Under the pieces are notes generated by a model, which saw only the letters and a list, made by a program, of their open reading frames with translations, had not been told where the DNA came from and ran no database searches. This document shows, piece after piece, positions 15,163 to 54,820 of a stretch of DNA of 64,000 nt. The first letter of the stretch is position 1. The number at the start of each line of letters is the position of its first letter. This stretch comes from Daucus carota subsp. sativus (taxonomy: Eukaryota; Streptophyta; Magnoliopsida; Apiales; Apiaceae): assembly GCF_001625215.2 (NCBI RefSeq), contig NC_030383.2, positions 4,352,779 to 4,416,778 of the forward strand, in the 5' to 3' direction. Made by a program: the position numbers and the translations under genes.

Positions 15163-18100
15163 CTACTTGGTGTCTGTACTGCGTAAATCATCCTCTAGTA
15201 CTGGACATTCCCTGACGATACTCTTTTTAAGAAACGGCACATTAGCTCCAATGCTACTCATCACTGGCAGTCCCCACAAATGTAATTCCTGTAGTTGAGG
15301 CAGAGTACTGTTTGATTGCTTGTCATTAAAGACACTTGTCATCTTCTCGCAGCATTTGACGTGGAGGACTTTGAGATTTGTGGACGTTGAGAGAACTGTT
15401 ACAAGCTTGGGGCAATCAACAACTTGTAATGACTCTAGCTTTGGTGCAACACAGCCCACCTTTTCCAAATTTGGGAGAGCTCGTAAATGCAAGTTTTTTA
15501 ACTTTGGCAAATGCACAGACTCATCTTCGAACAGAGTCTTCAGTCCATCACAGAATTTGATTTCAAGTACCTCGAGGCTCTCCAGCTTTTGTGATGCACC
15601 AAAGAGAGTTGGAATGTTTGGGCAACAGTCAAGGTGCAGACACTTGAGATTTTTCAGAATTCCATGGAGGTTACCTAGTACGATACCCTTCAGGTTAGGA
15701 GCATTGGAAACCGAAATGATCTCTAGATTATCCTCCAACATGTTTGTGTTTTGTTCTGGTTCAGCAGTGGAATTCATCTTCTCAGCATCAAAAATACTCT
15801 TTATGTTATCACATCTTTCGATCCAACAGACTTTCAAGTTCTTTATATGCTCTGCACCAAAATCCAAAAAGGATGTAATAAATGGATTATCAATTATGTA
15901 TACAACTTCTGCATGATGGAGGATAACTTCAAGGCTTGCAGGGTTATGTTGGAATCCACGAATTTCCAAAGAGCGTACTTGTTCCATAGGATGAACAAAT
16001 TGCCAAGCCTGGATGCAGATACTTCTGAAGATAAGCTCCATTTTGTATAGTTTTTTATAATCTTTCTTCTCATTGAGTTGGTTGAGAGGACTAACAAGAA
16101 AATGGAATTGCTTGAAACCTGTATCCCACAAAGAGGGATCTTCCAAGAGCTCATCAAGTCGAGCACAACTTACATATAAGCCATGTTTGTCGTTGTGAAC
16201 TTCTAAGTCTACTGGCCAGCTAGACATCATCCATTGTTGCTTATTTACGTCCCCTCTTGTTTTCTCTGATTCTGTGGTGTCAACTTCTTGATTTTGTTTC
16301 CCCGTAGGCAATTCAAGACTTGTTTTTTCTGATTCTGTGGTGTCAACTTCTTGATTTTGTTTCCCCGTAGGCAATTCAAGACTTGTTTTTTCTGGTTCTG
16401 TGGTGTCAACTTCTTGATTTTGTTTCCCCTTAGGCAATTCAAGACTTGTTTTCTCTGGTTCTGTGGTGTCAACTTCTTGATTTTGTTTCCCTGTAGGCAA
16501 TTCAAGACTTGTTTTCTCTGGTTCTGTGGTGTCATCTTCGTGATTTTGTTTCCCCGTAGGCAATTCAAGACTTGTTTTCTCTGATTCTGTGGTGTCAGCT
16601 TCTTGATTTTGCTTCCCCATAGGCAATTCAAGACTTGTTTTCTTTGATTCTGCGGTGTCAACTTCTTGATTCTGTTTTCCCATAGGCAATTCAAGACTTG
16701 TTTTCTCTGGTTCTGCGGTGTCAGCTTCTTGATTTTGTTTCCCCATGGGCAATTCAAGACTTGTTTTCTCTGATCCCGTGGTGTCAACTTCTTGATTTTG
16801 TTTCCCCGTAGGCAATTCAAGACTTGTTTTCTCTGATTCCGTGGTGTCAACTTCTTGATTTTGTTTCCCCGTAGGCAATTCAGGACTTGTTTTCTCTGAT
16901 TCTGTGGTGTCAACTTCTTGATCTTGTTTCCCCGTAGGCAATTCAAGAAGCTCAAGGTGTGGTAAATCCAAGATCTCATCGGGAAGTTGAGAAGTAGTGG
17001 TATCACTCAGTAAAGTATTCAGTGTCACATCAAGAAAATCTTTAGTGCTTGAGTGAAACTGGCGGAGGTTTTTGAAACTCCTTAGTGACTCTATTCCATT
17101 AACTGCTGTTCCGGAGAGATCCAGGGCCTCTAGATTCGTAAGTGCTGCCAAATCTGGAACCACTTCAAGATGCTTGCAACCCCTGAGACTAAGAGCATTG
17201 AGGTTTTTGAGGTTTGACATGGATGGCAAACTTTGGACATTGGTTTCAGATAGATTGAGAGTTTTAAGGTCTGACATATCCTTTAAGAATGCAGCTCTAT
17301 CATCTCCTGACAGGTCCACACCAGAAAGATTAAGCTCTTCAAGTTTAGGTAGCATTATATCACTTGGAAACTTTTTCAAGTCCATACAATTTTGAAGTAA
17401 GAGCTTTTGGAGGCTACCCGGATTTGGCAATGTGGGCAGGGACTCGATCTTTGTGTTAGAAAGGTCAAGTTTCTGAAGACGAGACATTTTCTCAAATGAT
17501 TGATCTGGTATCACTTTCAATGCTGTACAATTAGAAGCATCCAGCTCCTCCAGATTTACAAGGCCATTCAGGTCTGGCAACTCTTGCAATGACTCGCAAT
17601 GTGATAGTAAAAGCTGGCGGAGATTTTGAAGTTTGGAGAGTGATGGTAATTTTTTAACTTTGGTTTCTGAGAGGTTGAGTTCTTGAAGGCTTGTTGTGGT
17701 ATCAAAGAAGTCATCTTCAATTGCGGACAATTGAGTAGAACCAGAAAGATCAAGTATCTCTAGCTTTTCGAGAGAATCCATGCATTCTAATTGCTTGAGC
17801 TTAAGACAGCGTTTAAGAAAGAGTTGTCGTGGATGGCTGATATGAGAAGGTAGGAGTTCAAGAGAAGTATCGGATAGATTAATGATCTTAAGTTCACCAA
17901 CCATTTCTAATGATAAATCATGAAACTCTTTGAACTTTGTAGCCCCTGAAATATCAAGAGTCTGGAGACTAGTGAGTGGAGCAATGCTCCGCAGTCTATC
18001 TAAATCAGCACAGTCACTTAAAAGGAGATGTGTGAGCTTTTTAAGTTCTTTAAGCAATGGTAAGGTTTTGATCTTGGTTTTAGAAACATCAAGTATTTGA

Positions 18101-19869
18101 AGTTTCTTATTGAAGTGAAAATTTGTGTCAAGAAAAGATTCAAAAGAAGAGGCATAAGAAAGATCAAGATGTAAAAGATGTTCTAGGTTTCTGAGGGAAC
18201 CTGAGACACTTTTTAAGCAAGAACACTCTCTAAGAATCAACCACTTTATCTCTTTAAGCTCAAAAAGAGACGAAGGTAATGATTCAATCTTGAGCTGAGA
18301 AAGATTGAGGCTACGAAGCTGACGCATAGCCTTGAAGAGATCTTCTGGTAGTTTTGTCAAGGAGGTAGCACCAGATATCTCAAGCACAGTCAAGTTAGAC
18401 TGTAGAGTGTGGTCGAATTTTTCCAAGTAGTCACAGCCTCTAAGCACAAGTATATCAAGTTTGGTCAGAGCAGAGACTGATTCTGGCAATTCTGTCATTG
18501 TTGGGTGAAAAACAGCAAGAACTTGAGCTCCCTTATATTTCAAGAACTTATTCAAGTCTTCCACTCCAAAATAATTTCCATCCAGGAGCAAGGTTGAAAG
18601 ATTCTTGCCTTTGTTGTCCTTAAAAAGTGTTCTGATAACACCATCTTTATGCGTGATTCTCCCAAATCCTGTCCAATTATCATCAAAAACAGTGGCCAAT
18701 CCTATAGTAACTGTTTCATGAAATCCCATGTCTCTCCAGTCACTTATACCTGAGACCCTATTCCGATTAATGATCACATAACCACCCTCTAGTTCCTTCA
18801 GCATGTGGCATTCAATAAGCTCCATCACAATACTATGACCCTTCTCAAAAGCTTTCTGAATAGAACTTATGTTGCCAAGATAGCCTTCCAATATCCAGTA
18901 GGTTATCAATTCATTGTAATGCACACTTCTGCTCTTAAGAAAATAGTGCAGGTCGCCTTTGTATAAGAAGTCCAGTAAAATAATGCTTGGCAACGGGTCA
19001 TATTCCTTAAAAAGTAACTGCATTACATTGTACTTGTCATTAAAAGATGAAACTTTTTCGTCTAGTTGCTTAAGCCAGGAACCATCCTTCCCAAAATGAC
19101 ACAAGGCTTTTGCTAGCACAATGATATCAGCTATACTCAAACTCTTGCATTTTGTATGAAAATCTTTAGCCCAAGTAGCCAAGCCCGGAACACCATCACC
19201 AATTCTTTCCACCAGAAAAGAAGATAACTGCTGATCGGCTAAAGCTTTCAGCTCAAACCTAAATTCATCAGGAGCTTCACCGCTTGTGACTCTAGTAACC
19301 AAAACCTTGAATGGAATTCCTCGTTTTTCAAGATGAAGCAAATTCTCCAAATCCGCCATGATATCTCCTTGCTTCACTTTACTTCCCTCATCATCCAAAA
19401 CAAAAAGAATCCTCTTCTTCTCAGATATTGCACGATCCATCAAATCTTTAATCGTCTTTTCCTTCTTCATTTTCTCCTCCTCTCCCTTCTTCTTTCTATC
19501 CTCCTCTTCCTTCTTCTTCATCTCCTCGTCCTTTTTGCTATCTTTCTTGTCATTAGCAGCTTCCTTCTTCTCATCTTCATTAATCTCATCCGTCATCTCC
19601 CACTCATCACTGTACTCCAGTTGTATAGACATCTGGCGAGCTACAGTGTCGCGAAGAGCTTTCATGTCATGATCTCTACACATAAATATCCAAATGCTTA
19701 AATCAAAGCTACCATCCTCAACTGCATGATCACTTAACTTCTTAGCCATCCATGTTTTCCCAACTCCGGACTCGCCATAAATAACAATTGTTTTTGGTGC
19801 CTCATCCTTTAGCTTTTCATATAGCTCGATAAATTTCTCATTCAGTCCCAGCTCCATTGTATTGGACAT
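15163..19869 (-). CDS. NB-LRR-like disease resistance protein with internal 21-residue repeats (1568 aa)
   Basis: A single long exon from ATG at 19869 to TAG at 15163. The P-loop GESGVGKT is at residues 32-39, very close to the N-terminus, so no TIR or full coiled-coil domain precedes it. A lysine/glutamate-rich insertion follows at about residues 90-140. The Walker B-like RILFVLDDE lies near residue 153 and an RNBS-B-like FKVLVTRV follows. A winged-helix-like part (YWILEGYLGN) is seen, but no clear MHD motif. Leucine-rich repeats run from about residue 440 to 970. Eleven 21-aa repeats fill residues 976-1206, and a second LRR-like region occupies 1207-1568. From memory the layout recalls the Arabidopsis At4g19050/At5g45510 group rather than canonical CNLs. 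A role in immune recognition or signalling is inferred. A divergent partner starts at 24006. Confidence 0.85.
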   Translation of the reverse strand: MSNTMELGLNEKFIELYEKLKDEAPKTIVIYGESGVGKTWMAKKLSDHAVEDGSFDLSIWIFMCRDHDMKALRDTVARQMSIQLEYSDEWEMTDEINEDEKKEAANDKKDSKKDEEMKKKEEEDRKKKGEEEKMKKEKTIKDLMDRAISEKKRILFVLDDEGSKVKQGDIMADLENLLHLEKRGIPFKVLVTRVTSGEAPDEFRFELKALADQQLSSFLVERIGDGVPGLATWAKDFHTKCKSLSIADIIVLAKALCHFGKDGSWLKQLDEKVSSFNDKYNVMQLLFKEYDPLPSIILLDFLYKGDLHYFLKSRSVHYNELITYWILEGYLGNISSIQKAFEKGHSIVMELIECHMLKELEGGYVIINRNRVSGISDWRDMGFHETVTIGLATVFDDNWTGFGRITHKDGVIRTLFKDNKGKNLSTLLLDGNYFGVEDLNKFLKYKGAQVLAVFHPTMTELPESVSALTKLDILVLRGCDYLEKFDHTLQSNLTVLEISGATSLTKLPEDLFKAMRQLRSLNLSQLKIESLPSSLFELKEIKWLILRECSCLKSVSGSLRNLEHLLHLDLSYASSFESFLDTNFHFNKKLQILDVSKTKIKTLPLLKELKKLTHLLLSDCADLDRLRSIAPLTSLQTLDISGATKFKEFHDLSLEMVGELKIINLSDTSLELLPSHISHPRQLFLKRCLKLKQLECMDSLEKLEILDLSGSTQLSAIEDDFFDTTTSLQELNLSETKVKKLPSLSKLQNLRQLLLSHCESLQELPDLNGLVNLEELDASNCTALKVIPDQSFEKMSRLQKLDLSNTKIESLPTLPNPGSLQKLLLQNCMDLKKFPSDIMLPKLEELNLSGVDLSGDDRAAFLKDMSDLKTLNLSETNVQSLPSMSNLKNLNALSLRGCKHLEVVPDLAALTNLEALDLSGTAVNGIESLRSFKNLRQFHSSTKDFLDVTLNTLLSDTTTSQLPDEILDLPHLELLELPTGKQDQEVDTTESEKTSPELPTGKQNQEVDTTESEKTSLELPTGKQNQEVDTTGSEKTSLELPMGKQNQEADTAEPEKTSLELPMGKQNQEVDTAESKKTSLELPMGKQNQEADTTESEKTSLELPTGKQNHEDDTTEPEKTSLELPTGKQNQEVDTTEPEKTSLELPKGKQNQEVDTTEPEKTSLELPTGKQNQEVDTTESEKTSLELPTGKQNQEVDTTESEKTRGDVNKQQWMMSSWPVDLEVHNDKHGLYVSCARLDELLEDPSLWDTGFKQFHFLVSPLNQLNEKKDYKKLYKMELIFRSICIQAWQFVHPMEQVRSLEIRGFQHNPASLEVILHHAEVVYIIDNPFITSFLDFGAEHIKNLKVCWIERCDNIKSIFDAEKMNSTAEPEQNTNMLEDNLEIISVSNAPNLKGIVLGNLHGILKNLKCLHLDCCPNIPTLFGASQKLESLEVLEIKFCDGLKTLFEDESVHLPKLKNLHLRALPNLEKVGCVAPKLESLQVVDCPKLVTVLSTSTNLKVLHVKCCEKMTSVFNDKQSNSTLPQLQELHLWGLPVMSSIGANVPFLKKSIVRECPVLEDDLRSTDTK
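16252..16944 (-). repeat. In-frame minisatellite, 11 units of 63 bp
   Basis: Eleven contiguous 63-base units each encode 21 residues of the form ELPTGKQNQEVDTTESEKTS plus one more. Variation is limited to a few positions (T/M/K after ELP, E/D and V/A changes, S/P/G near the end, TR in the last unit). Because 63 is a multiple of three and the units lack stops in other frames, false overlapping frames also stay open across the block. The array links the first LRR domain to the C-terminal LRR-like domain of the NLR-like protein. Confidence 0.95.
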
Positions 19870-20190
19870 TCTAGCTGGATTATCTACAATATTAAGAATA
19901 CAATTATCGTGGCTTTTATTTTATTGGGAAAACACATTTTTGTGTACTTTTTTATGAATTGTATTACCAGTAATATAAATATAAATGAATAAATAAATAA
20001 ATATTTGTTTTAAAAAGATTTAGATAATATAAAGATGATTTATGTTTGTGTTAATATACTATCAAAATCAATATATCAGTTTTATAAAAATTACAAATAT
20101 TAACTTGTAATACATTATTTATTAAATTATATTTCACTTTGTATAATTTTGGAATTTTATTTGTTAAATATTGTGTTAGACTGTTAGTTA

Positions 20191-20413
20191 CTCCCTCCGT
20201 CCCATTGGATTGTTGCACGCTTTTTAAGGCCTCAATAAAATATAGTTCCATGATGTTTTTTTTTATAAAAAAAATTTTGAATAAAAGTTTGATGTCTAAA
20301 CTTTTATTCAGAAAAAAAATAAATTTAAAAAATATTATATTGCTATATTTTATAAGAGCCCTCAAAAATGCGTGCAAACAGTGTACGTTAACAATCCCAC
20401 GGGACTGGGGGAG
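20191..20413. mobile_element. Stowaway MITE, 223 bp
   Basis: Left end CTCCCTCCGTCCCATT, right end GGGACTGGGGGAG, flanked by TA at 20189-20190 and 20414-20415. The long internal arms are self-complementary around TTTTTTATAAAAAAAA. Confidence 0.9.
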
Positions 20414-20469
20414 TAATTTTTTTCAAATATATTATCATATCCATTATTATGTTAAAATACATAATATTA

Positions 20470-20686
20470 CTCCTTCCATCCTCTTTTACATATTTCTTTG
20501 AAAAGAATATGTATGTTAAGAAAAATTTAATTGAGTATTTGATTTTTTTATCTACTCATTAAATTGATTTATGTGTAAAAGATATTTTTGGAAAAACATT
20601 TAAAAAAATTATTTTGAAAAGAGAAAATAGATAAGTATGTTGGGATAATATTTTTTTAAGAAAATACAAAAAGAGGACGGAGGGAG
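20470..20686. mobile_element. Stowaway MITE, 217 bp
   Basis: Left end CTCCTTCCATCCTCTTTT, right end AAAAGAGGACGGAGGGAG, flanked by TA at 20468-20469 and 20687-20688. Confidence 0.9.
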
Positions 20687-20905
20687 TATAGAAGAAGCAA
20701 TATTACAAATTGATTTTAACAGAATTTATGTAGTACCAACTTTTTAATTGAACAAATAAGTAGAAAATGTACATGTACGCTAGAAATTCATGTTTATTGT
20801 ATAACAATTTTTGAATATGTATATTATAAAAATTATAATAAAGGGAGGTGGGTTAAAATAAATAAATGTAACTATAATTTATTTTTTTGAGAAAATAATA
20901 ATATA

Positions 20906-21090
20906 CTCCCTCCGTCCTTTTTAGTTGTCATTTTGACTTTTTGCACGTAATTTAAAATGATTAAAAAACATACCTTCACTCATTATTTTTGATTTTTTTA
21001 TGAATAAAAATATAAGCTATACATTTTTATTCAGAAAAAAATAAAATAATAAGTGAAAGTATGCTTTTTAATCAACTTAAATTATGTGCA
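20906..21090. mobile_element. Stowaway MITE with eroded right end
   Basis: The left end CTCCCTCCGTCCTTTTT follows TA (20904-20905). The inner arm TTAAAATGATTAAAAA is mirrored by a complementary arm up to about 21090, but the right terminal CTCCCTCC-type repeat is missing. The boundary is approximate. Confidence 0.65.
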
Positions 21091-22929
21091 AATGAAACTG
21101 ATAAAAAAACTGATAAAAGCTAATAAATTTAATAGAAACTTCTTTTTTCCATCCAACTACTTTTATTTATCTAAACTATGATTTAACATATAATATACAA
21201 ATTAAATATTTTTTATATATAATATTTAGTCATTATTTAAAATTTATTATTTGACAACTACTAAATTATATTTATTTATTATTATTTGTAATAATTTACC
21301 AACAACAAGAATCTTTTGACTGTCACGTAAGACGTTATATTAAAAGAATAAGTTAGCGGGCTAAATATCTAATAAATAATGATATGTGTTTAAAGAATAA
21401 TAGAAAAACATGCACATAAATATATGGTTTTTGATGATACAATTTTTAATATTATACTAGACACCATATTACTTTTTTTCTAAGATTATAAGTTGCTATG
21501 TACGGGAATATATGGACAGTGCAACATTTTAGCATGTTTAACTTTCTACTTCCCTGTTTGGACCAAATAGTTAGCGTTAATTTTTCAGAATTATGTTTTT
21601 TTTTTAAATGTACTCAAAATCTTAATTATAAGGATATTAATCACAAATGATCAATTTTAGTATACAATCAAATTATGTGTCAAAAAATTAAACATTAAAT
21701 ATAAACACATAAGGAGTAAATGTCATACAGCAGCATAGCTAAGCATATAAAAATTATAACACACAAGCAGGAGGAAGAAGAAAATGAACCTGAAAAGTAT
21801 GAAGTACTCTCGAGAAGAAATGAACAAGATAAGAGATATATTATTTTATGAATCCACCTATTTATAAGTGGAGGGGAGGTGGGTGCTTGATTGAATGATT
21901 GATCAACTTTACACTTTTTTTACTAATATAATTGGCTTTTAAATGTAAATAGTAGGGCCTCTCTAGTTCTTGTGTAGAATGATGAATATTTTTTTTATTA
22001 TTAATCTAATATTCCCAATTTCACTCATTTTTATATATTATAAAAATAAAGATTTATATTTTAGAGATTTCTGATAACGCCTTAGAAATGATAATTTAAG
22101 AAACAAATCAAAAAAGGATTATTTCGTTTTCCTAGCAAGAAGTAACAACTAATACTAAATTCTCGAAACATTTATGTGGGGAAATAAAAAAGAGGAAGAT
22201 TTAATTTTTTTTCCTCATCTTATATTAAAATTCCTTTTAGAATATAATAAAAAAAGTTATAACATATTTTTCATTCTTTTCCTCTCGGTGTTAAAAAGCT
22301 TATGAATATAATCACTCTATTTTAAAACTTAATATAGTAAATTTGATTTAAATTAAAAACGTAGCATAAAGGAAGGGAGCAAGGAACAAAGTAATATAGC
22401 ACAGAACAAAGCAAAGTCGAGAAACAAAAAAAGGATAAGGAATTGTACGAAAGAATATTTGAGGATGAGTACATAAATTGGTTTTGTATATTCTTTGCTG
22501 ACTGCCCAACTATTGGTATAATTTTATAGAGAAAAGAACAAAGCAAAAAGAAAAAGATATAGCAGAGTATATGAAAAGAGAAAATAAATAAAATAAAAGT
22601 AAAAGAAAACAAATTAATTGTAGAAATGTTAAACTACACCGCTGTCCGAAATCCGGACATACAGAGAGCATGGTCCCGCAATTTATTGTTGTAGAAAAAA
22701 AAAAAAGGGAAAGGAAGCATTCGGTCCGATGATCGAACTGAAAGAACCGAAAACCGAATTAAAATAAGTTATATGTTAAAATATTTTATGAAGTAATAGA
22801 AAAACGGTTAATATATAGGAGGGACGCAGACAATACATATCGGATTTTCTATTATATTTACTAACTGCGATGTTAAAATTAATTTATTTTTTCTGAAATA
22901 CGATCTTAAAATTAATTGTTAATTAAAAT
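21091..22929. other. Intergenic region between the divergent NLR-like genes, first part
   Basis: Very AT-rich. It contains the probable TATA box and leader exon of the minus-strand gene near 21790-21866. Nothing else could be supported. Confidence 0.4.
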
Positions 22930-23288
22930 CAGTGTTCTAAAAATCCCCGATTTAACCGATTAATCCCCGATTAATCCACTGCAAGGTCGGTCACCGCGAT
23001 TTTTGAAATCCGATTAATCCATATATATATTTTCTTAATCGAAGTATATGTGATAAATTATTAAAATTAAAATATTATATTACTTTAAATATGAATAATT
23101 ATAGAGTTTATGAATATAGTAATATAAATAGCTAATATAATAATAACTAAATATTAAATAATATTTTAATATTAAAATAAACCTGATTTTAACTCCGATT
23201 AATCTTTCCGATTAATCCCCGATTTCCGATTAATCCTTGAATTGGTAGCTCAATCGATTAGGTCTGATTCTCGATTTCTGTAACACTG
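22930..23288. mobile_element. hAT-type MITE, 359 bp
   Basis: Terminal repeats start CAGTGTTCTAAAAATC on the left and CAGTGTTACAGAAATC in reverse complement on the right. The flanks ATTAAAAT (22922-22929) and ACTAAAAT (23289-23296) match at seven of eight bases, fitting the 8-bp duplication of hAT elements. The word CCGATTAATC is repeated many times near both ends. Confidence 0.85.
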
Positions 23289-23466
23289 ACTAAAATACAT
23301 CTTTGGCAGATATGTTTTATTAGTTTCCAAAATTCCACTTTCGTACCATTTATCGATTATTAAAAATCTTGTTACATACTTTTTCCTGATTAAAAAAGTT
23401 ACACAGCGTGAAGTGAATTGGCCGTTCAAATGTTATTTTAGTCCAACCATCGTAACCCTGCCCCCT

Positions 23467-23791
23467 TAGAGATGCACAAAAGATCTGTTCGGGCCAGATT
23501 CAGACCGGACCGAAAAAATCCGGATTTTTTTGAAACCAGATCGGACCGGGCTTTTTTGAAAATTGGGCAGGGCCGGGCCGGGCTTTCCCAAAAATACTAG
23601 GCCTGGTTTAGTTATAAAAAGCCGGGATTTTTCAAAAATCCGGATTTTATCCGGATTTTTTTGAAAATACTAAGTCTGTTTTAGGCCCTCGGACCGGGCC
23701 GGGCCAGACCGGGTTTTTTTCGGATCGGGTTTTTCAGATTTTTTTCCGGATCGGATCGGATTTCAGATTTCAGATTTTTTGAACATCTCTA
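23467..23791. mobile_element. hAT-like MITE, 325 bp, with TAGAGATG ends
   Basis: TAGAGATG at the left and CATCTCTA at the right, with matching inner words (CAAAAGATC and CAAAAAATC). GCCCCCT flanks both sides (23460-23466, 23792-23798). The inside is built of CCGGATTTTT and CGGGCCGGG words. It belongs to the same end-type as the elements at 43482 and 57846. It lies 215 bp upstream of the plus-strand NLR-like start codon. Confidence 0.8.
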
Positions 23792-24005
23792 GCCCCCTGC
23801 CAAAACAAGGGTTGTTAGAAATATTTTATTTATAGCCTCTTTTTTAATTAAAGTCAATAGACTCAATAATACCCAGAATGTAAATCATCCGAGTCGACTC
23901 AGTTCAGAATCGTCTGTTTGCAAGTCTAAGGTCTACATTTTAAACGGCTAGTCTTAAAATTAGATAAAACTTGATTTTTTTGTCGAAAAAAACTCTCCCT
24001 TGACC

Positions 24006-27000
24006 ATGTCATCGTCGGATCCAACAATTTCTCAGCCACCAAAGGCATCTTCCGACGATGCAGCTAAATCTAAAGTTGATGAAGACAAGCAAACGCAAGT
24101 TGTTCACGACGATTCCACCAAGTCCATGTCTCAGGATCCTCCGCATTCCAGTGGAGTCATTCCAGATCCAAAACAAGATGACACTGATAAGAAAGAAGTG
24201 TCTGATAAAGATGTAGTCGATACTGCAGATCCGAAAGCTGATAAGAAGGAAGTGGCTGATGAAGGTGCTGACGAAGGAAAAGATCGAATTGACCAGGCTA
24301 AACTAGTTGAAGCTCCTCAGCAGTTGAAAGAAAGCATTCCAGCTACTCAGGAAAAAGATGATAAGCCGCCTCAGCAGTCCGACGAGAGCATTCCATCTCC
24401 TGGAAAGAAAGATGATAAGCCGCCTCAAGAGATAAATGAGAGCATTCCAGCTCCAGGAGAAAAAGATGATAAGCGGCCTCAAGAGACGAAAGAGAGCATT
24501 CCAGCTGATGATAAGCCGCCTCAAGAGACGAAGGAGAGCATTCCAGCACCCGGAGAAAAAGATGATAAGCCGCCTCAAGAGACGAAGGAGAGCATTCCAG
24601 ATCCTGAAATAAAAGATGATAAGCCGCCTCAACAGACGAAAGAGAGCATTCCAGCTGATGATAAGCCGCCTCAAGAGACGAAGGAGAGCATTCCAGCTCC
24701 TGAAAAGAAAGATGATAAGCCGCCTCAAGAGACGAAAGAGAGCATTCCAGCTCCGGGAGAAAAAGACGATAAGCCGCCTCAGGATACGAAGGAGAGCACT
24801 CCAGCTTCTGAAAAAAAAGATGATACGCCGCCTCAACAGGCGGACCAGAGCATTCTACCTCCCGGAGAAAAAGATGATAAGCAAAAACAAGTGATTGACG
24901 GCGATATGAAAGATTCAACCTCTCAATTACCTCAACAATCTGACGACATCGCTCCTAACACAGCTCCGTTAGAAGGAGATAAGCAAACAGAACTTGATGA
25001 AGATGCTGATAAATCAGTTTCGCAGAAACAGGATGAAGAAATCACTCCGGATCCAGATCAGGAAACCGGTGACAATTCTGATGATTTCGCTGGTCAATCT
25101 GTGGATCCAGTTCCAACAATTCAGAATGCTACAGATGACAGTGATTCTGGACCAGTCGCAGATGATGCTCTAATAGTATTGGTTCGACGCGAACTAGAGT
25201 ACATACGAGAGACTGCTAACAAGTTGAATGATTACGGAGACATCGTTGAACAGAGTCTAGTAGGTTCGGGTGATAAAATTAAAGAGCTTGATATTAGCTT
25301 GATTGAAGCAGTTGAGGATAAAGATAGCGACGAGGTAGGTAAAGAAAAACGAATTAGAGATGTTCAGAAAGAGATTCGTATCTTCAAAAAGCATCTAAGG
25401 AAATTGAAGCTCATTATACCTCCAAAATTCAAAGTGAACAAGGATGATATACCGGAGCTGAAGAAGTACTTGAGCGAGTTAACGCAGAATGTGAAGCTGT
25501 ATACCAGTGACAATAAGCAGATTTTGGGGAAACTGGACCTGTTCAAGGAGAAAATAAATCATGAGTACAGATCTGCGTTTAAAGATTTTCAGGCGCGGTA
25601 TGAGAAGCTTGATTACAGAATGAAGTTGTGTTTGCTTTGTTTTTCTGCAATTCCGGAGCATGAGGTGATTAAAAAGAGGCTTATGGTGTACTGGTGGATT
25701 GGGGAAGGTTTTATATTCCCGGAGAAGTTGGAGAAGTCCGAGACACCAGGAGAAAAGAAACCAGATTTGGAGCAACTGGGAGCTAAAGTCTTTGATGATC
25801 TTTTAAAACAGCAATTCATATTTTCTGCTGATGGCAAGGATAGCCAGGAAGTTGATAATTGTAAAATGTTGCCTTTTGTGCGCTGGGCGGTTATATACAT
25901 GGCGCAGAGAGCTAAGTTTTTTGAGTTTGATCACGATGGGAGCCCAATAGAAGACTATACTTCTTGTTTCAGGGCGTGTTTATCTGGCAACGGATTAGAT
26001 ACTCAGAAGGCTCCTGATCTTGAGAAACTTCATATGTTGTTAAATGTTAATGAAGCGATTCTTGAGTTAAAGCCCGAATGGCTGTTGAAAATGAGAAACA
26101 TTAGTATACTTTGTTTGGGAAGGTGGCAGGCTGCATCAGAACATCATATTGAAGTTGAAGATACTAAATTCTTGCAAGCTTTGAAGAATATGATACATTT
26201 GAGGTATCTTAGTCTTCAAGGGATTTCACGAATTACTGAGCTTCCTAATTCTGTTTCGTGTCTGACAAAGCTGACTATGCTTGATCTAAGGGCTTGTCAC
26301 AATCTTGAGATTATTCCTCGTGATATTGGCTCACTCAGGATGCTCACATACTTGGACTTGTCGGAGTGCTACCTGCTAACACAGATGCCTCGAGGGTTAT
26401 CAAAACTTGAGAATCTAGTAGTTCTGAAGGGGTTTTTAGTCGTGGAAGATCCAAAGAAGGATAAGATTTGTACTATTGAGGACTTGGCTAAATTAAAGAA
26501 ACTCAGAAAACTAAGCATCTTCACTGGTGTGGAGGCCTTTCCTAGTTCAAAAGATCTAAGTGCTTTTCAAAAATTTGAAGTGCTCAATAAGCTTAAGATA
26601 GTCTGGGGAGGAAAGAAAGCAATCAAAGGCGAGTCTGGTCAAACAACAGCTGAAGGAGGTGCCACAACAGGGGTTTCTAGCGTAGAGACCAGCAAAGACA
26701 TTGGGAGAAAACTAATCCCTGATGTGATGCCTAAAAGCAAGAGAAGTTCCAGAAAGAATGCATTGGGGGTATCAGACAGTTCAAACTCAGGCCTTCCTAA
26801 GCAACTGCAAAAGCTCGACCTTCAATGTTATCCTCTGGAATCAGCACCAGAATGGCTGAAGCCTAAGAAATTGGAGAACTTAAAGAAACTGTACATCAGA
26901 GGTGGGAAACTCCGCGATCTGAATCTTACAAATGACGACTGGGAGGTCGAGCCTTGGAATGTAGAGACTCTACGTCTCAAGTACTTGACAGGATTGGGAA

Positions 27001-27137
27001 TGAATTGGACTGAACTGCTGGAACTGTTTCCTAAATTAATTTACTTGGAGAAAGTGAGATGCACAAAGCTCACCCTATTCCCTTGCAACGATAAAGGAGT
27101 CTGGATCAACAGGGCGGAACTTTCCAAGAAGGTATAA
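24006..27137 (+). CDS. NLR-related protein without NB-ARC: repeat-rich N-terminus, winged-helix-like segment and LRRs (1043 aa)
   Basis: Intronless, from ATG at 24006 (MSSSDPTISQPP) to TAA at 27137. Residues 1-385 are acidic and disordered, with an 11-unit Pro/Glu/Lys repeat at 103-292. From about residue 386 there is a helical, coiled-coil-like segment (RRELEYIRETANKLNDYGD and a KEIRIFKKHLRKLKL stretch). Residues about 532-570 hold a winged-helix-like block typical of RPP13-like NLRs (LCLLCFSAIPEHEVIKKRL, then YWWIGEGFIFPE). LRRs start near residue 727 (HLRYLSLQG, LTMLDLRAC, LTYLDLSEC) and resume near 935. No P-loop, kinase-2 or GLPL motif is present. From memory it resembles the RPP13-like 4/At5g45520 type. 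It may be a helper or regulator of the divergent P-loop gene; this is inference. Confidence 0.8.
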   Translation: MSSSDPTISQPPKASSDDAAKSKVDEDKQTQVVHDDSTKSMSQDPPHSSGVIPDPKQDDTDKKEVSDKDVVDTADPKADKKEVADEGADEGKDRIDQAKLVEAPQQLKESIPATQEKDDKPPQQSDESIPSPGKKDDKPPQEINESIPAPGEKDDKRPQETKESIPADDKPPQETKESIPAPGEKDDKPPQETKESIPDPEIKDDKPPQQTKESIPADDKPPQETKESIPAPEKKDDKPPQETKESIPAPGEKDDKPPQDTKESTPASEKKDDTPPQQADQSILPPGEKDDKQKQVIDGDMKDSTSQLPQQSDDIAPNTAPLEGDKQTELDEDADKSVSQKQDEEITPDPDQETGDNSDDFAGQSVDPVPTIQNATDDSDSGPVADDALIVLVRRELEYIRETANKLNDYGDIVEQSLVGSGDKIKELDISLIEAVEDKDSDEVGKEKRIRDVQKEIRIFKKHLRKLKLIIPPKFKVNKDDIPELKKYLSELTQNVKLYTSDNKQILGKLDLFKEKINHEYRSAFKDFQARYEKLDYRMKLCLLCFSAIPEHEVIKKRLMVYWWIGEGFIFPEKLEKSETPGEKKPDLEQLGAKVFDDLLKQQFIFSADGKDSQEVDNCKMLPFVRWAVIYMAQRAKFFEFDHDGSPIEDYTSCFRACLSGNGLDTQKAPDLEKLHMLLNVNEAILELKPEWLLKMRNISILCLGRWQAASEHHIEVEDTKFLQALKNMIHLRYLSLQGISRITELPNSVSCLTKLTMLDLRACHNLEIIPRDIGSLRMLTYLDLSECYLLTQMPRGLSKLENLVVLKGFLVVEDPKKDKICTIEDLAKLKKLRKLSIFTGVEAFPSSKDLSAFQKFEVLNKLKIVWGGKKAIKGESGQTTAEGGATTGVSSVETSKDIGRKLIPDVMPKSKRSSRKNALGVSDSSNSGLPKQLQKLDLQCYPLESAPEWLKPKKLENLKKLYIRGGKLRDLNLTNDDWEVEPWNVETLRLKYLTGLGMNWTELLELFPKLIYLEKVRCTKLTLFPCNDKGVWINRAELSKKV
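24312..24881 (+). repeat. In-frame minisatellite, 11 units of 54 or 42 bp
   Basis: Eleven contiguous units encode residues 103-292. Nine units are 18 residues long (type PPQETKESIPAPGEKDDK). Two units are 14 residues long (type PPQETKESIPADDK) through loss of four codons. The array is Pro-, Glu- and Lys-rich and probably unstructured. Units 5 and 9 are identical in protein, suggesting recent slippage or unequal exchange. Confidence 0.95.
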
Positions 27138-36032: not shown

Positions 36033-36216
36033 TGGGTTCGTTTGACTGAGTTTAAAATAAGTGTTTTTTGCTTAAAATAAATAAGTGAAGTAGAAGTCAG
36101 AAGCAAGTTAAGACTTATAAGTGATTAAACTGTTTGGGAAATAAGCACAAGTCCTAAAACAAAAGCTAACAATTCTAACTTCTTTTAAGTGCTTCTTAAC
36201 TTTTTACACAAACGGT
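36033..36216. mobile_element. Tourist-like MITE copy, right end uncertain
   Basis: It begins TGGGTTCGTTTGACTGAG after a TTA, then GTTTAAAATAAGTGTTT. This matches the reverse complement of the element at 52385-52630. The right end stops near ACACAAACGGTA without a clear duplication. Confidence 0.55.
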
Positions 36217-49691: not shown

Positions 49692-51958
49692 CTAGTTAGC
49701 TGGCAGAGGATCTTCTTGAGGATAGAAAAAGGAGTTTGGAGGCGCCACCAAAAATTCAATATCTCTTTCGAACATTTCAATGACTTTGTTCATCGAAGGC
49801 CGATCATTCGGCCTCAATTGTATGCACCACAATGCTATTATCACCATCTTTTTCACTAATTTCCGTTCTTCCTCTGTAGCACCATCCATTTCAATCTCTT
49901 TTCCCTCGGTACATTGTTCATAAACCCACGAGGGGAAGTGATTTTGGCTGACATGATCCACAAACGGGTTCGATTTTTTCCTCCGGCCTGCCATTTCCAT
50001 CAACAACATTCCAAAACTATAAACATCCGCTTTGTATGAAATGCTTCCGACATTCTTGTAAAACATCTCTGGCGCCATGTAGCCCATTGTTCCTCTTGCC
50101 GCGGTGAGAGTCACAATGCTGTCACCAGTGGCGTACAATTTTGCAAGCCCGAAGTCAGAAATTTTTGGATTGTAATTCGTATCAAGAAGAATATTATGAG
50201 GCTTGATGTCAAAATGCAGAATTTGCATGTCACAACCGCGATGCAAGTAATGAATCCCAGTTGCTATTTTGTAGGAAATGTCATACATCTTTTCCCAGCT
50301 TAACGAAACCATTTCTTTCTCTGTTCCTTCTTTGCAAAAGAGGTATTTCTCTAACGATCCATTAGGCATGAACTCATAAATCAGAGCTCGTTTTTGACCT
50401 TCAAAGCAAAATCCAACAAGTTCCACCACATTGACATGATGAATCCTTCCGCTTGTAGCAACTTCATTAATAAACTCTTGTCCAGTTGCTTTGGACTTGG
50501 CCAATATCTTTACGGCTACAGAAAGACCACTCCGGAGCTTTCCCTTGTAAACAGTACCAAAGGCTCCTTCACCCAACCGATCTCTGAAATTATATGTGAT
50601 CTTCTTAATATCTGTGTAGGTGTACCTTATAGGCATCAAGTTGCTTTGAGCTTGAAGAAAATCCTCAATGGTATTGTAAATAGATAAATGCCTTCTTTTT
50701 GCTCTGTAAACCAATACAGCAAGCAAAAATGGGATTCCGAAAAGATATCTTGCAGCAAAAAATGATCCTGAAAGCTTGAAATAATTCTTAGCACAGTTGC
50801 AGTCACAAGACTCAAATTTGAATGCAATTTTTACAACTCAAGTAAAAAAAGGTAATGCAAGAAGAAGTCATCTTACCCGTAATCTGTCCTATAAGCCTCT
50901 TGTTTCCTATTAAGCATTAAACGAAAAACAAAAATCAAGATAAGTACTGATATTTATTTTTTTTATATGAAAAGAGCAAAATCTGCAAAGCTCACCCTGG
51001 AATGCTTCAATCAATCCATCCAAGTTCATCTTCAGGCCTACATGATATTGATAAATGTCAAGACTCAAGATCTTCTTAAATTGCAACCGGATGAATTTTC
51101 AAGTCTTTACTCACACTTCAGTGAAATTTTGTAAGAGTTTAGCCGATGGAAGTTGCAGCTGTATTCACAAATCCAAGCACGAGGCTCGTATCCAACAAAA
51201 CAATGGCTCGCTCCACTTTTGTCACACTTCAAGCAGTGCAGGAATTCCCAGGCAACATCAAATCCATAAACCATCCCATCATGAATTTCCGAAAACTCAG
51301 GTTTAGCCTTATTCAAGAGATGATCAGTAAGAGGCCATTGGGATGACACCCACGCGATCTTACTCACCCTGCAATTATCTTCCAGTTCTGATATATTTAA
51401 CGATCCAGCCACAACATAAGCATAAGAATAACTATAATACTTTTCCAAAACCTTATACGAAAATGATGAAAATTTTGATGTAACATTTAAGTATCTCCTG
51501 GAAATTACAGGAGACGGACATTCAATCCATATAACGGGCCAATTATGCTCCGTTATATCGGTATATTCTGCTACTTCATCCTGATAGAAATTTTGGTCTT
51601 GAAAAAATTGAAAAGGAAGAGAAGAATAGTTATTCTTCTCGAGCCCCGGATCAACAATTCTAATGGTGAAATTCTCATAGTTGATGTCTTCAACATAGTA
51701 GAGTTTATGTGAAGGGGTGTATAAGCTGGTGCGATTATTGGCACAAGAAAGCTGATAGGTGAATTGATAATCATCACATGTCTGATGATCACCTTTCAGT
51801 GTAAAAGGACAGGTTATGTTTTGGATATTACCACAAGATGAAGGAGAGAGCAAGGTAGCTTTGCATGAGGAGGAGTATATTATCAAGATGATTGTTAGTA
51901 TTTGAGAGAGAGTTGTGTAATTTGCAGGTACAGAGTAAGGCAAGCTCCAAAACCCCAT
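49692..51958 (-). CDS. LRK10-like receptor-like serine/threonine kinase A
   Basis: Four exons, 51958-51115, 51037-50996, 50906-50877 and 50767-49692, all GT-AG and in frame, give 663 aa. The N-terminal hydrophobic segment is a signal peptide. A Cys-rich GUB_WAK-type extracellular domain follows ([20 protein letters not shown]), and a second Cys-rich part ends near residue 280 ([26 protein letters not shown]). Two tiny exons precede the single membrane span (about residues 308-328, [12 protein letters not shown]). The kinase domain has [11 protein letters not shown] at 371-381, VAVK with Lys392, [11 protein letters not shown] in place of HRD (a non-RD kinase, usual for this family), DFG and APE. 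Rust-resistance kinase Lr10 and LRK10L proteins belong here. A cell-surface sensing role is inferred. It is divergent to kinase B. Confidence 0.92.
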
Positions 51959-52935
51959 GTTTTTTCCACAGCAAAATTGAGAAAACTCTTCACACTTTTG
52001 CCTAAGAATAGTCGCAGTTTACGTTTACAAATGAGCCTTGAAGAATCAGTAAACTTTTAATTTTTCAGAGAACTTCCCTAAGACCAAATAATTTGGTTTC
52101 CATGGTAGAGAAAAAGAATTTTATGCTGATATATAATAATTTCTCTTGTATTTAAATCGAGATGGAGAGAACATTATTATAATCAAAATTATAATATTAA
52201 TAAACTAAAATTATAATTATTTTTATTTATGATAATGTAATATATAAGACAGCAAAGATGAGTTCTTTTCTATCAGCAAGTCAGCGAGTGAGAATGCATG
52301 CATCAAAAATTCAACGTCAAACAAGTTGGGCACGACTCTCCTCAAATGTCACACTTAAGATATATACATTATACAAGTCATTTAGTGGTGTTTGTCTGAG
52401 ATTTATAAGTCCAGCTTTTGGATTATAAGCTATGAGCACTTATTTGTATCGTATGTGTAATAAGTTAGGAAGCACTTATAAAAAGTTAGGAATGCTGGTT
52501 TTTATTTCAGGGCTTCTACTTATTTACCAAACACTTTAATCACTTATAAGTCTTATCCTCCTTCTAACTTCTACTCCACTCATTTATTTTAAGCAAGAAA
52601 CACTTATTTTAAACTCACCCGAACGGTCCCTTAAGATGCATGTCAATTCAGGTTGCCTTTGTTGATCAATTCTACTTCACATTGTGATTGTTTTAGAAGA
52701 GCATGATTTGGACAGTGCGTTTATCGTATTTTTACTCATCAGCCTTGCTAGTTAAGCTTCTTTGCATACTGAATAAGCTGAGAAGATTCGATAAGTACTT
52801 ATTTTTCTTCTGTAGTGTTGTAGTTTTTCTTCCTATTGTAAGTGATAAATTATTACAAGTTTCCCCGAATAAATATCCAAATCCAATCATCATTCTTCTT
52901 CAGTCTTCACATACAAATTTTGAATCAGCTAAATT
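51959..52935. promoter_or_regulatory. Shared upstream region of the divergent receptor kinases
   Basis: 977 bp between the two start codons must hold both promoters. A Tourist-like MITE occupies 52385-52630. No individual motif could be assigned with confidence. Confidence 0.5.
52385..52630. mobile_element. Tourist-like MITE, 246 bp
   Basis: Left GTGGTGTTTGTCTGAG and right (reverse complement) GGGACCGTTCGGGTGAG, flanked by TTA at 52382-52384 and 52631-52633. A related copy is at 36033. Confidence 0.75.
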
Positions 52936-54820
52936 ATGGTCAAGTCCCCAGTAGTTATTTTTCTTTCTTGCTTTCTACTAGCGTGGTTTTCAGTAGGATT
53001 TGTAGCTGCAGATTCAAATACAGATGAATGCAGGGCCGCAAGATGCTTCCCTTATGACCCCGAAATTCGGTTCCCTTTCTGGCTCAAACATAAGCAGCCG
53101 AAGCACTGTGGCCTTCCCGGTTTCCAAATTTTCTGCCACAGGGGAAAAACTGAGATAAACATCCAGTACCTCGCAAACACGAGCCTCCACGGAACCCAAC
53201 TCCTCCTTTCTATCAAAGCAGAAGTCGATAAGATCAATTACACATCGCGAGAAATAGAGCTGGATTTGGCCTATGAGAGTGAAACCAGCAGTCTGAAACT
53301 GGTTCCCATGTCGAATTCTTTTTTCTCATCCACTATATATCCTTCTCCGTTCAGATTAATATCACCTCCGAAAAATGTAACATTCGTCAGTTGCTCCTCA
53401 GAACTTAAAGGAGGCTATTTTGGATCAACTAAAAGGCTGACTTCTCTAAGCGGAGAAGATTTCCCAGTTTACACATTCACAAAAGGCGAAACCATTAGTG
53501 TCTCACCGATAATCTCCTGTGTTAAGATTTTTGATTCTTACGGCATTTTGCAGTCTTACCAGACCTTCAACTGGTCCATTCCCCCACAACAACCTACAGG
53601 AGGTAATTGATTTTAGAAATTTTTGATGAATTCTAATTTTTACAGCTTCTTCGTGATCATGTTATAAAATGTTAATGCTACAAAATGGTTTTACAGGTCA
53701 GGAATCGATTAAGCCTATAGCAGGTATAATTTCAGGTTCTGTTCTAATAGCGGTTCTATTTGTGGGATTATCGTTTTATACAGTCAAATCATTTAAACAA
53801 AAAAAATATGATCAACTGAAAATTGAAATGTTTCTGGCGGATTACAAAGCCATGATACCGACAAGATACACTTTTGCTGATATCAAGAAAATCACTAGTC
53901 AGTTCAGGTATAAATTAGGTCAAGGAGGTTATGGATCCGTGTACAAAGGTAAAATCACCAATGAAATTACGGTTGCAGTGAAGGTCTTGCATAGCGATCC
54001 CAAAGCTAATGGGGAAGACTTTATTAACGAAGTGGGTACTATAGGACGAATCCATCATGTTAATGTGGTTCGCATGGTTGGGTATTGCGCTGATGGGTGC
54101 AATCGAGCTCTGGTATATGAGTTCCAGCCTAATGACTCCCTAGCAAAGTTCACATATTCTGGTAAAAATCATGGGAAAAAATTTCTCGGTTGGGAAAAGA
54201 TGCAAGAAATTGCTTTAGGCATTGCTAAAGGAATTGAATATCTTCATGATGGGTGCGCTCAACAGATTCTCCATTTTGATATCAAACCTCATAATATCTT
54301 GTTGGACAAAAATTTCAGTCCCAAAGTTTCAGATTTTGGTTTGGCCAAGCTGTGCTCGAAAGACCAGAGTGCTGTGTCAATGACTGTGGCCAGGGGAACC
54401 ATTGGGTACATTGCGCCTGAAGTATATTCTAGGAATTTTGGAAAGGTGTCGGCCAAATCAGATGTCTATAGTTTTGGAATGTTGTTACTTGAAATGGTAG
54501 GGGCACGGGAAAATGGGGAAATTGATACGAATGAAAACACAAGTGAAACATACTTTCCAGAATGGATTTATCACCGTTTGGAGGAAGGTGGGGAAATAGC
54601 AATTCAAATAGACAACGAAGAAGATTTATACATTGCAAAAAAATTGACGATTGTGGGACTAAGGTGCATAGCGTGGCATCCAGTGGACAGACCTGTCATG
54701 AAACAAGTTGTTCAAATGCTGGAAAGAGCAGAGTATCCAGCAATGCCACCTAATCCTTTCGGATCACTAAATGCAAGACCATTCACTAACCATCTGGAAG
54801 CTATTTCTGAATCTGATTAA
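52936..54820 (+). CDS. LRK10-like receptor-like serine/threonine kinase B
   Basis: Two exons, 52936-53602 and 53697-54820, joined across a 94-bp GT-AG intron, give 596 aa. Residues 1-25 are a signal peptide. A GUB_WAK_bind-type extracellular domain follows (CFPYDPEIRFPFWLK, HCGLPGFQIFC) and ends in a WAK-associated part with paired Cys. The membrane span is about residues 229-250 (IISGSVLIAVLFVGLSF). The kinase domain has GQGGYGSVYKG from residue 297, [16 protein letters not shown] (non-RD), SDFGLAK and GYIAPEVYS. The extracellular half differs strongly from kinase A while the kinase halves are clearly related. This is typical of the LRK10L-2/PR5K-like subfamily, whose members are often clustered. 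Confidence 0.92.

Follow-up and report, generated by a model that had tools for sequence, protein, structure and literature searches.

Gene content of the locus

Two large genes related to nucleotide-binding leucine-rich repeat receptors (NLRs) stand head-to-head in a 64,000-nt stretch of the carrot (Daucus carota subsp. sativus) genome, C3:4352779-4416778, hereafter the window, and may encode two subunits of one NLR-type receptor or regulator. The minus-strand gene, NL, encodes a protein that starts almost at its nucleotide-binding domain (NBD), while the product of the plus-strand gene, WL, has a winged-helix domain (WHD) and leucine-rich repeats (LRRs) and lacks an NBD (Table 1). Relatives of both lie elsewhere among the 441,086,747 bases (11 contigs) that were searched; where copies must be told apart, the window genes are called NL3 and WL3, those on C4 NL4 and WL4, and the WL-type gene on C6 WL6.

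Table 1. Features of the NL/WL locus, in window coordinates.
Feature	Position	Strand	Description
NL gene	15163..19869	-	NBD-HD1-WHD-LRR, 1568 aa; open frame, Pfam and structure matches
Coding minisatellite in NL	16256..16948	-	11 copies of 63 bp, 93% matches; 21-residue unit ~ELPTGKQNQEVDTTESEKTSL
P-loop GESGVGKT, NL residues 32-39	19753..19776	-	coordinates derived from ATG at 19869
Intergenic stretch	19870..24005		26% GC, MITE-like inverted repeats, 7 ORFs of at least 60 aa
WL gene	24006..27137	+	repeat-rich leader, helical region, winged helix, LRRs; 1043 aa
Coding minisatellite in WL leader	24326..24882	+	10.8 copies of 54 bp, 77% matches; ~KDDKPPQETKESIPAPGE
WL helical region, ~residues 386-528	25161..25589	+	long helices, low-confidence prediction; not recognised as Rx_N
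WL winged-helix block	25590..25919	+	LMVYWWIGEGFI at residue 559; CKMLPFV at residue 619

An earlier note on this DNA had described two intronless frames diverging from start codons 4.1 kb apart. Both frames are indeed uninterrupted, that of NL from 15163 to 19920, stop to stop, with its ATG at 19869, and that of WL from 23964 to 27137, with its ATG at 24006, and 4136 bp separate the start codons. Because intact relatives exist elsewhere in the genome, these are not chance frames. The absence of introns holds for the coding frames, and an intron may lie in the 5' untranslated region (5'-UTR) of the minus gene. A TATA-like site, TATAAATA, is found at 21866, roughly 2 kb before the start codon of NL, with further TATA-like sites at 21219, 22037 and 23834; together with an acceptor-like AG, read by eye just 5' of the NL ATG, the site at 21866 would permit such an intron, which would place the two promoters about 2.1 kb apart.

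The gap between the genes contains elements with CTCCCTCCGTCC-type ends (window 20468-20688 and 20902-21092), which we take to be miniature inverted-repeat transposable elements (MITEs); a different repeat-like element lies on the 5' side of NL4 and matches 275 bases of sequence 3' of WL6 at about 90% identity. W-boxes in the gap number four against 3.1 expected, a count reached or exceeded in 78 of 200 shuffles, and thus give no signal of shared cis-elements. Scanning the window with Rfam (gathering threshold) and for tRNAs returned no matches.

If exons had been missed, NL might possess a coiled coil or WL an NBD. This account draws on the possible 5' intron and on the scope of the survey, which read open frames only and scanned those of at least 60 aa between the genes. 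It is nevertheless the least probable of those considered here. An NLR N-terminal domain is present in none of the seven intergenic open reading frames (ORFs) of at least 60 aa, which gave weak unrelated matches only (best E 0.099); NL4 also begins at its NBD, with the P-loop at residue 44; and in all three WL copies the helical region passes into the WHD within one frame, with no room for an NBD.

Domain composition of NL and WL

Besides the P-loop, NL has a kinase 2 motif, LFVLDDE, and thereby the NB-ARC domain with P-loop and kinase 2 that is taken to define a plant NLR. Pfam places the NB-ARC (E 2.5e-8) at residues 32-108 of the stop-to-stop frame, which starts 17 residues before the ATG. 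Only the front of the domain is aligned, probably because of a Glu/Lys-rich insertion (window 19435-19599, NL residues ~91-145) that separates the opening part of the NBD from kinase 2; the insertion is shorter in NL4, whose NB-ARC covers profile positions 5-222 of 248 at E 2.5e-23. The winged helix of NL carries LITYWILEGYL at residue 321, and its WH_DRP match (E 0.008) falls under the Pfam cut-off; a phmmer alignment of NL to tomato NRC1 extends through this block. The NL minisatellite sits between two LRR blocks. Pfam found no N-terminal signalling domain in NL, in keeping with the earlier description of a minus gene with a P-loop at residues 32-39 and LRRs, and none in NL4.

WL retains the WHD (WH_DRP E 5.7e-7) and LRRs and is devoid of both the NBD and HD1, with CKMLPFV occupying the place of the MHD motif of other NLRs. 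The plus gene had been said to lack nucleotide-binding motifs, and a full NB-ARC there, named beforehand as evidence against the proposal, was rejected: Pfam reported none in WL3 (limit E 10) or in its two paralogues (limit E 1), under HMMER filters that remove most matches above about 0.1, and the P-loop pattern GxxxxGK[T/S] occurs in none of the three full WL-type proteins. The first ~385 residues of WL form a low-complexity leader. Since little of the NL and WL minisatellites aligns to NL4 or to WL4 and WL6, the two look like separate expansions.

Behind the leader lies the helical region, for which hhalign against two ordinary carrot coiled-coil NLRs (CNLs) gave a probability of 0.2%; these two controls themselves match Rx_N at 1e-18 and 6.6e-24. 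The region could still be a diverged coiled coil. The earlier inventory of the plus gene is sound for the winged helix, the LRRs and the presence of a helical region, which does not match Rx_N. An NBD was found in NL only, but winged helix and LRRs are common to both proteins; as WL also has no recognisable coiled coil, the idea of complementary halves is only partly right.

A second linked pair and the divergence of the two families

Genome searches with the two proteins scored 43 of 1987 candidates for WL (50 matches) and 30 of 1652 for NL (48 matches), and the counts are lower bounds. At least three full WL genes were found, in the window, at C4:44883455-44886007 (-) and at C6:25722745-25724745 (+), with fragments on C8, C5 and C6. 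At least two NL loci reach the nucleotide-binding part, the window locus with one row and C4 with two rows from a single gene, NL4 (C4:44878337-44882212, +); the other 45 of the 48 rows start at query residue 463 or later and are LRR matches only. NL4 and WL4 are arranged tail-to-tail, with 1242 bp between their stop codons. Relatives in which the two genes are unlinked had been named beforehand as evidence against a unit; in this one genome, a WL neighbour stands beside both NL genes found, and an NL neighbour beside two of the three full WL genes. The second linked pair suggests that NL and WL belong together, and since the two pairs differ in orientation, a shared promoter is not what keeps them so.

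NL3 and NL4 share 43% identity over 1252 aligned residues, with a nonsynonymous divergence (dN) of 0.480 and a saturated synonymous divergence (dS) of 1.57; for WL3 and WL4, the figures are 47% over 678 residues, 0.477 and a saturated 2.16. The WL4-WL6 split is younger (dN 0.33, dS 0.70). The equal dN of NL and WL is consistent with the pair having been duplicated once, long ago, as a unit, after which WL6 would have arisen and now stands without a partner. No collinear neighbours were found for the C3, C4 and C6 regions, a weak test of block duplication that covered short regions only. Beyond NL and WL, these regions have in common only kinase matches, short low-scoring rows and repeats; the stronger rows between C4 and the window and between C4 and C6 were rejected as block remnants, being stops read through or DNA-level matches in repeat-like stretches. 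For the NAC-alpha gene next to the C4 pair, the best other copy is at C6:33.75 Mb, away from WL6.

Conservation along WL is uneven. Compared with the other WLs, WL3 shows 50-58% identity in the WHD and LRRs and 21-31% in the helical region; between WL4 and WL6, the values are 75% (WHD), 64% (LRR) and 28% (helical region). Such a pattern would follow if the shared function resided in the WHD-LRR part, with the helical part evolving fast or under weak constraint; the poor conservation of the helical part disfavours a conserved pore-forming coiled coil. The same divergence of the helical region, together with the broken WL fragments on C8 and C5, would suit a decaying NLR that lost its NBD and came to lie beside NL by accident. 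That is very improbable in view of three long intact WL frames with a dN/dS of about 0.47 where measurable, an identical NBD-less layout in all three copies, and two linked pairs.

The C8 fragments are copied pieces: five rows at C8:21594789-21665658 match WL3 with 76-89% identity, at about residues 522-700 (the WHD and after), some with stops. At C1:25711806-25721753, two long LRR-rich frames (588 and 1138 aa) resemble the LRRs of NL, with no match to its nucleotide-binding part.

Relation to ZAR1 and to described NLR systems

The best solved-structure match of WL is ZAR1, the Arabidopsis RPP13-like protein 4 (PDB 6j5t), from which WL differs in lacking the NBD, HD1 and a recognisable coiled coil. 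A 295-aa WHD-LRR fragment of ZAR1 was compared with the genome (133 of 693 candidates scored, 138 rows). The top two rows are WL4 (94.3 bits, 28%) and a gene with an 864-aa frame that contains an NB-ARC (93.7 bits, 33%). The window WL appears at row 37 of 138 (65.3 bits, 29%), with two control CNLs among the rows above it, and identity at the level of a ZAR1 orthologue is reached by no row among the candidates scored, in a search not dedicated to that question. The idea that WL descends specifically from ZAR1 was dropped, given that another NB-ARC gene matches the fragment equally well and WL3 ranks so low; ZAR1 is the nearest solved structure, not a demonstrated ancestor. In the viral structure library, named matches were mostly LRR-type or F-box proteins and the others uncharacterised, and NCBIfam returned LRR effector, internalin and ATPase-type models and one toxin-subunit model (E 0.0078), all far under their cut-offs.

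The near tie between WL4 and an NB-ARC gene speaks for the idea that WL is a switch-less decoy or brake, comparable to Arabidopsis NRG1C or the atypical NRCX, which competes with complete NLRs for a shared ligand or partner; NL would then act independently and the linkage would reflect an old NLR cluster. The persistence of WL6 without a nearby NL also agrees with it. However, both NL genes found have retained a WL neighbour after diverging to 43% identity, and among the candidates scored, no full-length NLR emerged as an evident near relative of WL: outside the WL family, WL3 has no long-frame match above 48 bits. We hold a decoy or brake to be unlikely, if more plausible than the other rivals. 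The available passages on NRG1C describe a natural NLR that, like WL, lacks most of the NBD; unlike WL, it also lacks the N-terminal domain and suppresses its full-length relatives (PMC12315475).

The closest described counterpart is the wheat pair RXL/Pm5e. According to the passages available from PMC11933841, its genes are head-to-head, 1387 bp apart, and both needed for powdery-mildew resistance; hetero-complexes form preferentially by split-luciferase assay, with support from co-immunoprecipitation and blue-native gels; and RXL keeps the WHD while the NBD and HD1 are missing, in a pair that is old in grasses. On its own, the RXL coiled coil sets off cell death, and by its AlphaFold 3 scores RXL is classed as the helper (PMC12409091). 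So far as these sources go, NL/WL resembles RXL/Pm5e in being a linked pair, head-to-head in the window copy, with one partner that has WHD and LRR without NBD and HD1 and another, like Pm5e, with an NB-ARC and a deviant N-terminus, and in a tight linkage kept over time (two of two NL loci found, one genome). The two pairs also differ. The coiled coil is of the standard ZAR1-like kind in RXL and atypical in Pm5e, whereas none was found in NL and the WL helical region matches no coiled-coil profile; the start codons are 1387 bp apart there and 4136 bp here; RXL orthologues are reported from grasses only; and association and disease resistance have been demonstrated for RXL/Pm5e and are postulated for NL/WL.

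NL proteins without N-terminal domains that act with partners have been reviewed (PMC13133928). As presented in the available passages of that review, wheat Yr84/YrTD121 includes an NB-ARC-LRR protein that lacks an N-terminal domain and works with a partner NLR, as proposed for NL, although the partner there is a canonical full NLR and WL lacks the NBD. Sorghum RMES1A/RMES1B likewise consists of two incomplete NLRs that are jointly required; both are NL proteins without an N-terminal domain or a working P-loop, and neither lacks the NBD (PMC13133928). The earlier note had considered the split layout unusual; RXL/Pm5e and, by report, Yr84/YrTD121 are precedents for it. The layout has a functional precedent in wheat; what carrot adds is that neither protein is complete and that a second linked copy exists in another orientation.

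A different role is conceivable, in which the two families, with the pair as a long-conserved unit built from NLR parts, serve housekeeping or stress functions beyond pathogen recognition. Copy number is low, with at least two NL and at least three full WL genes against at least 129 NB-ARC matches (123 of 390 candidates scored), as such a role might imply. NL is presumably akin to Arabidopsis At4g19050 and At5g45510, and WL to the LRR protein At5g45520, whose locus number is the next after At5g45510. In the accessible parts of the literature, At4g19050 is labelled NL-A (PMC5664099) and At5g45510 'divergent NL' (PMC2175511). At5g45510 belongs to the nine genes of its class whose signal in controls exceeds the mean present signal, which favours a housekeeping function, yet it and At5g45490 are induced 4 h after salicylic acid, in the passages available (PMC2175511). 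Moreover, the domains of NL and WL are NLR domains, and we regard a housekeeping role as improbable. At5g45520 appears in none of the matches listed by a literature search on At5g45510/At5g45520, and no NL-WL-type pair is described among the matches listed, or in the passages available, for At4g19050/At5g45510.

A possible heteromeric receptor

Our preferred reading, to which we give a probability of roughly 0.4, is that NL and WL each form one subunit of a heteromeric immune receptor or regulator of the NLR type. We infer that the two proteins associate, switch, produce an output and serve in immunity, as follows. NL, which has no output domain, would bring the nucleotide-dependent switch (NBD-HD1-WHD) together with a long double block of LRRs. 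WL, unable to bind nucleotide, would contribute a ZAR1-type WHD-LRR and the helical region with its variable leader. The two may associate through their WHD and LRR parts, as a counterpart of wheat RXL/Pm5e; nucleotide exchange in NL would drive a change that WL or a third partner converts to output. With no recognised identity and, in the window copy, up to 385 leader residues in front of it, the WL helical region more likely docks or regulates than forms a ZAR1-style membrane pore.

Several observations weigh against a heteromeric receptor. No NL match lies within some 20 kb of WL6 in either direction, and the head-to-head order seen in the window is not kept in the second pair; in addition, since the genome searches scored only part of the candidates, unlinked copies may be missed. 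The helical regions of the three WL copies yielded no Rx_N match (limit E 10) and are not recognisable as a coiled coil. A canonical MHD motif is absent from NL, and GLPL is also absent from the window copy. The two structure models are weak, with mean predicted local distance difference test (pLDDT) scores of 53.4 and 46.9. We know of no role of either NL or WL in immunity.

Other features of the window

At 49692-52018 (-) and 52933-54820 (+), mirror-image sets of kinase and GUB_WAK frames stand head-to-head; these sets, of the wall-associated kinase type, probably represent a divergent duplicate pair from a different class of receptor. A non-coding repeat of some 170 bases, dispersed and with 84-89% DNA identity, occurs at window 36033-36203 and 52473-52631 and at 2950-3120 of L044, with a shorter match in L033.

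Implications for NLR biology

A stronger version of the heteromeric reading, possible though doubtful, is that NL and WL make up an obligate two-piece NLR with both subunits incomplete, kept together as a linked unit when the pair was duplicated long ago and hence probably common to many eudicots. If true, NL alone would hold the switch and WL alone the N-terminal helical part, giving a trans-complementing receptor, unlike a sensor-helper pair of complete NLRs. The described NLR pairs considered here consist of two more or less complete receptors or lack one kind of part. An obligate two-piece receptor would assign a function to 'NL' genes and to NBD-less genes that resemble relics. NLR counts based on NB-ARC overlook the WL partner entirely, and neither NL gene was among the matches listed by the NB-ARC search of this genome, in which 123 of 390 candidates were scored. 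A pair with reciprocal gaps would allow the separation of NLR switching and output on different chains to be asked about directly.

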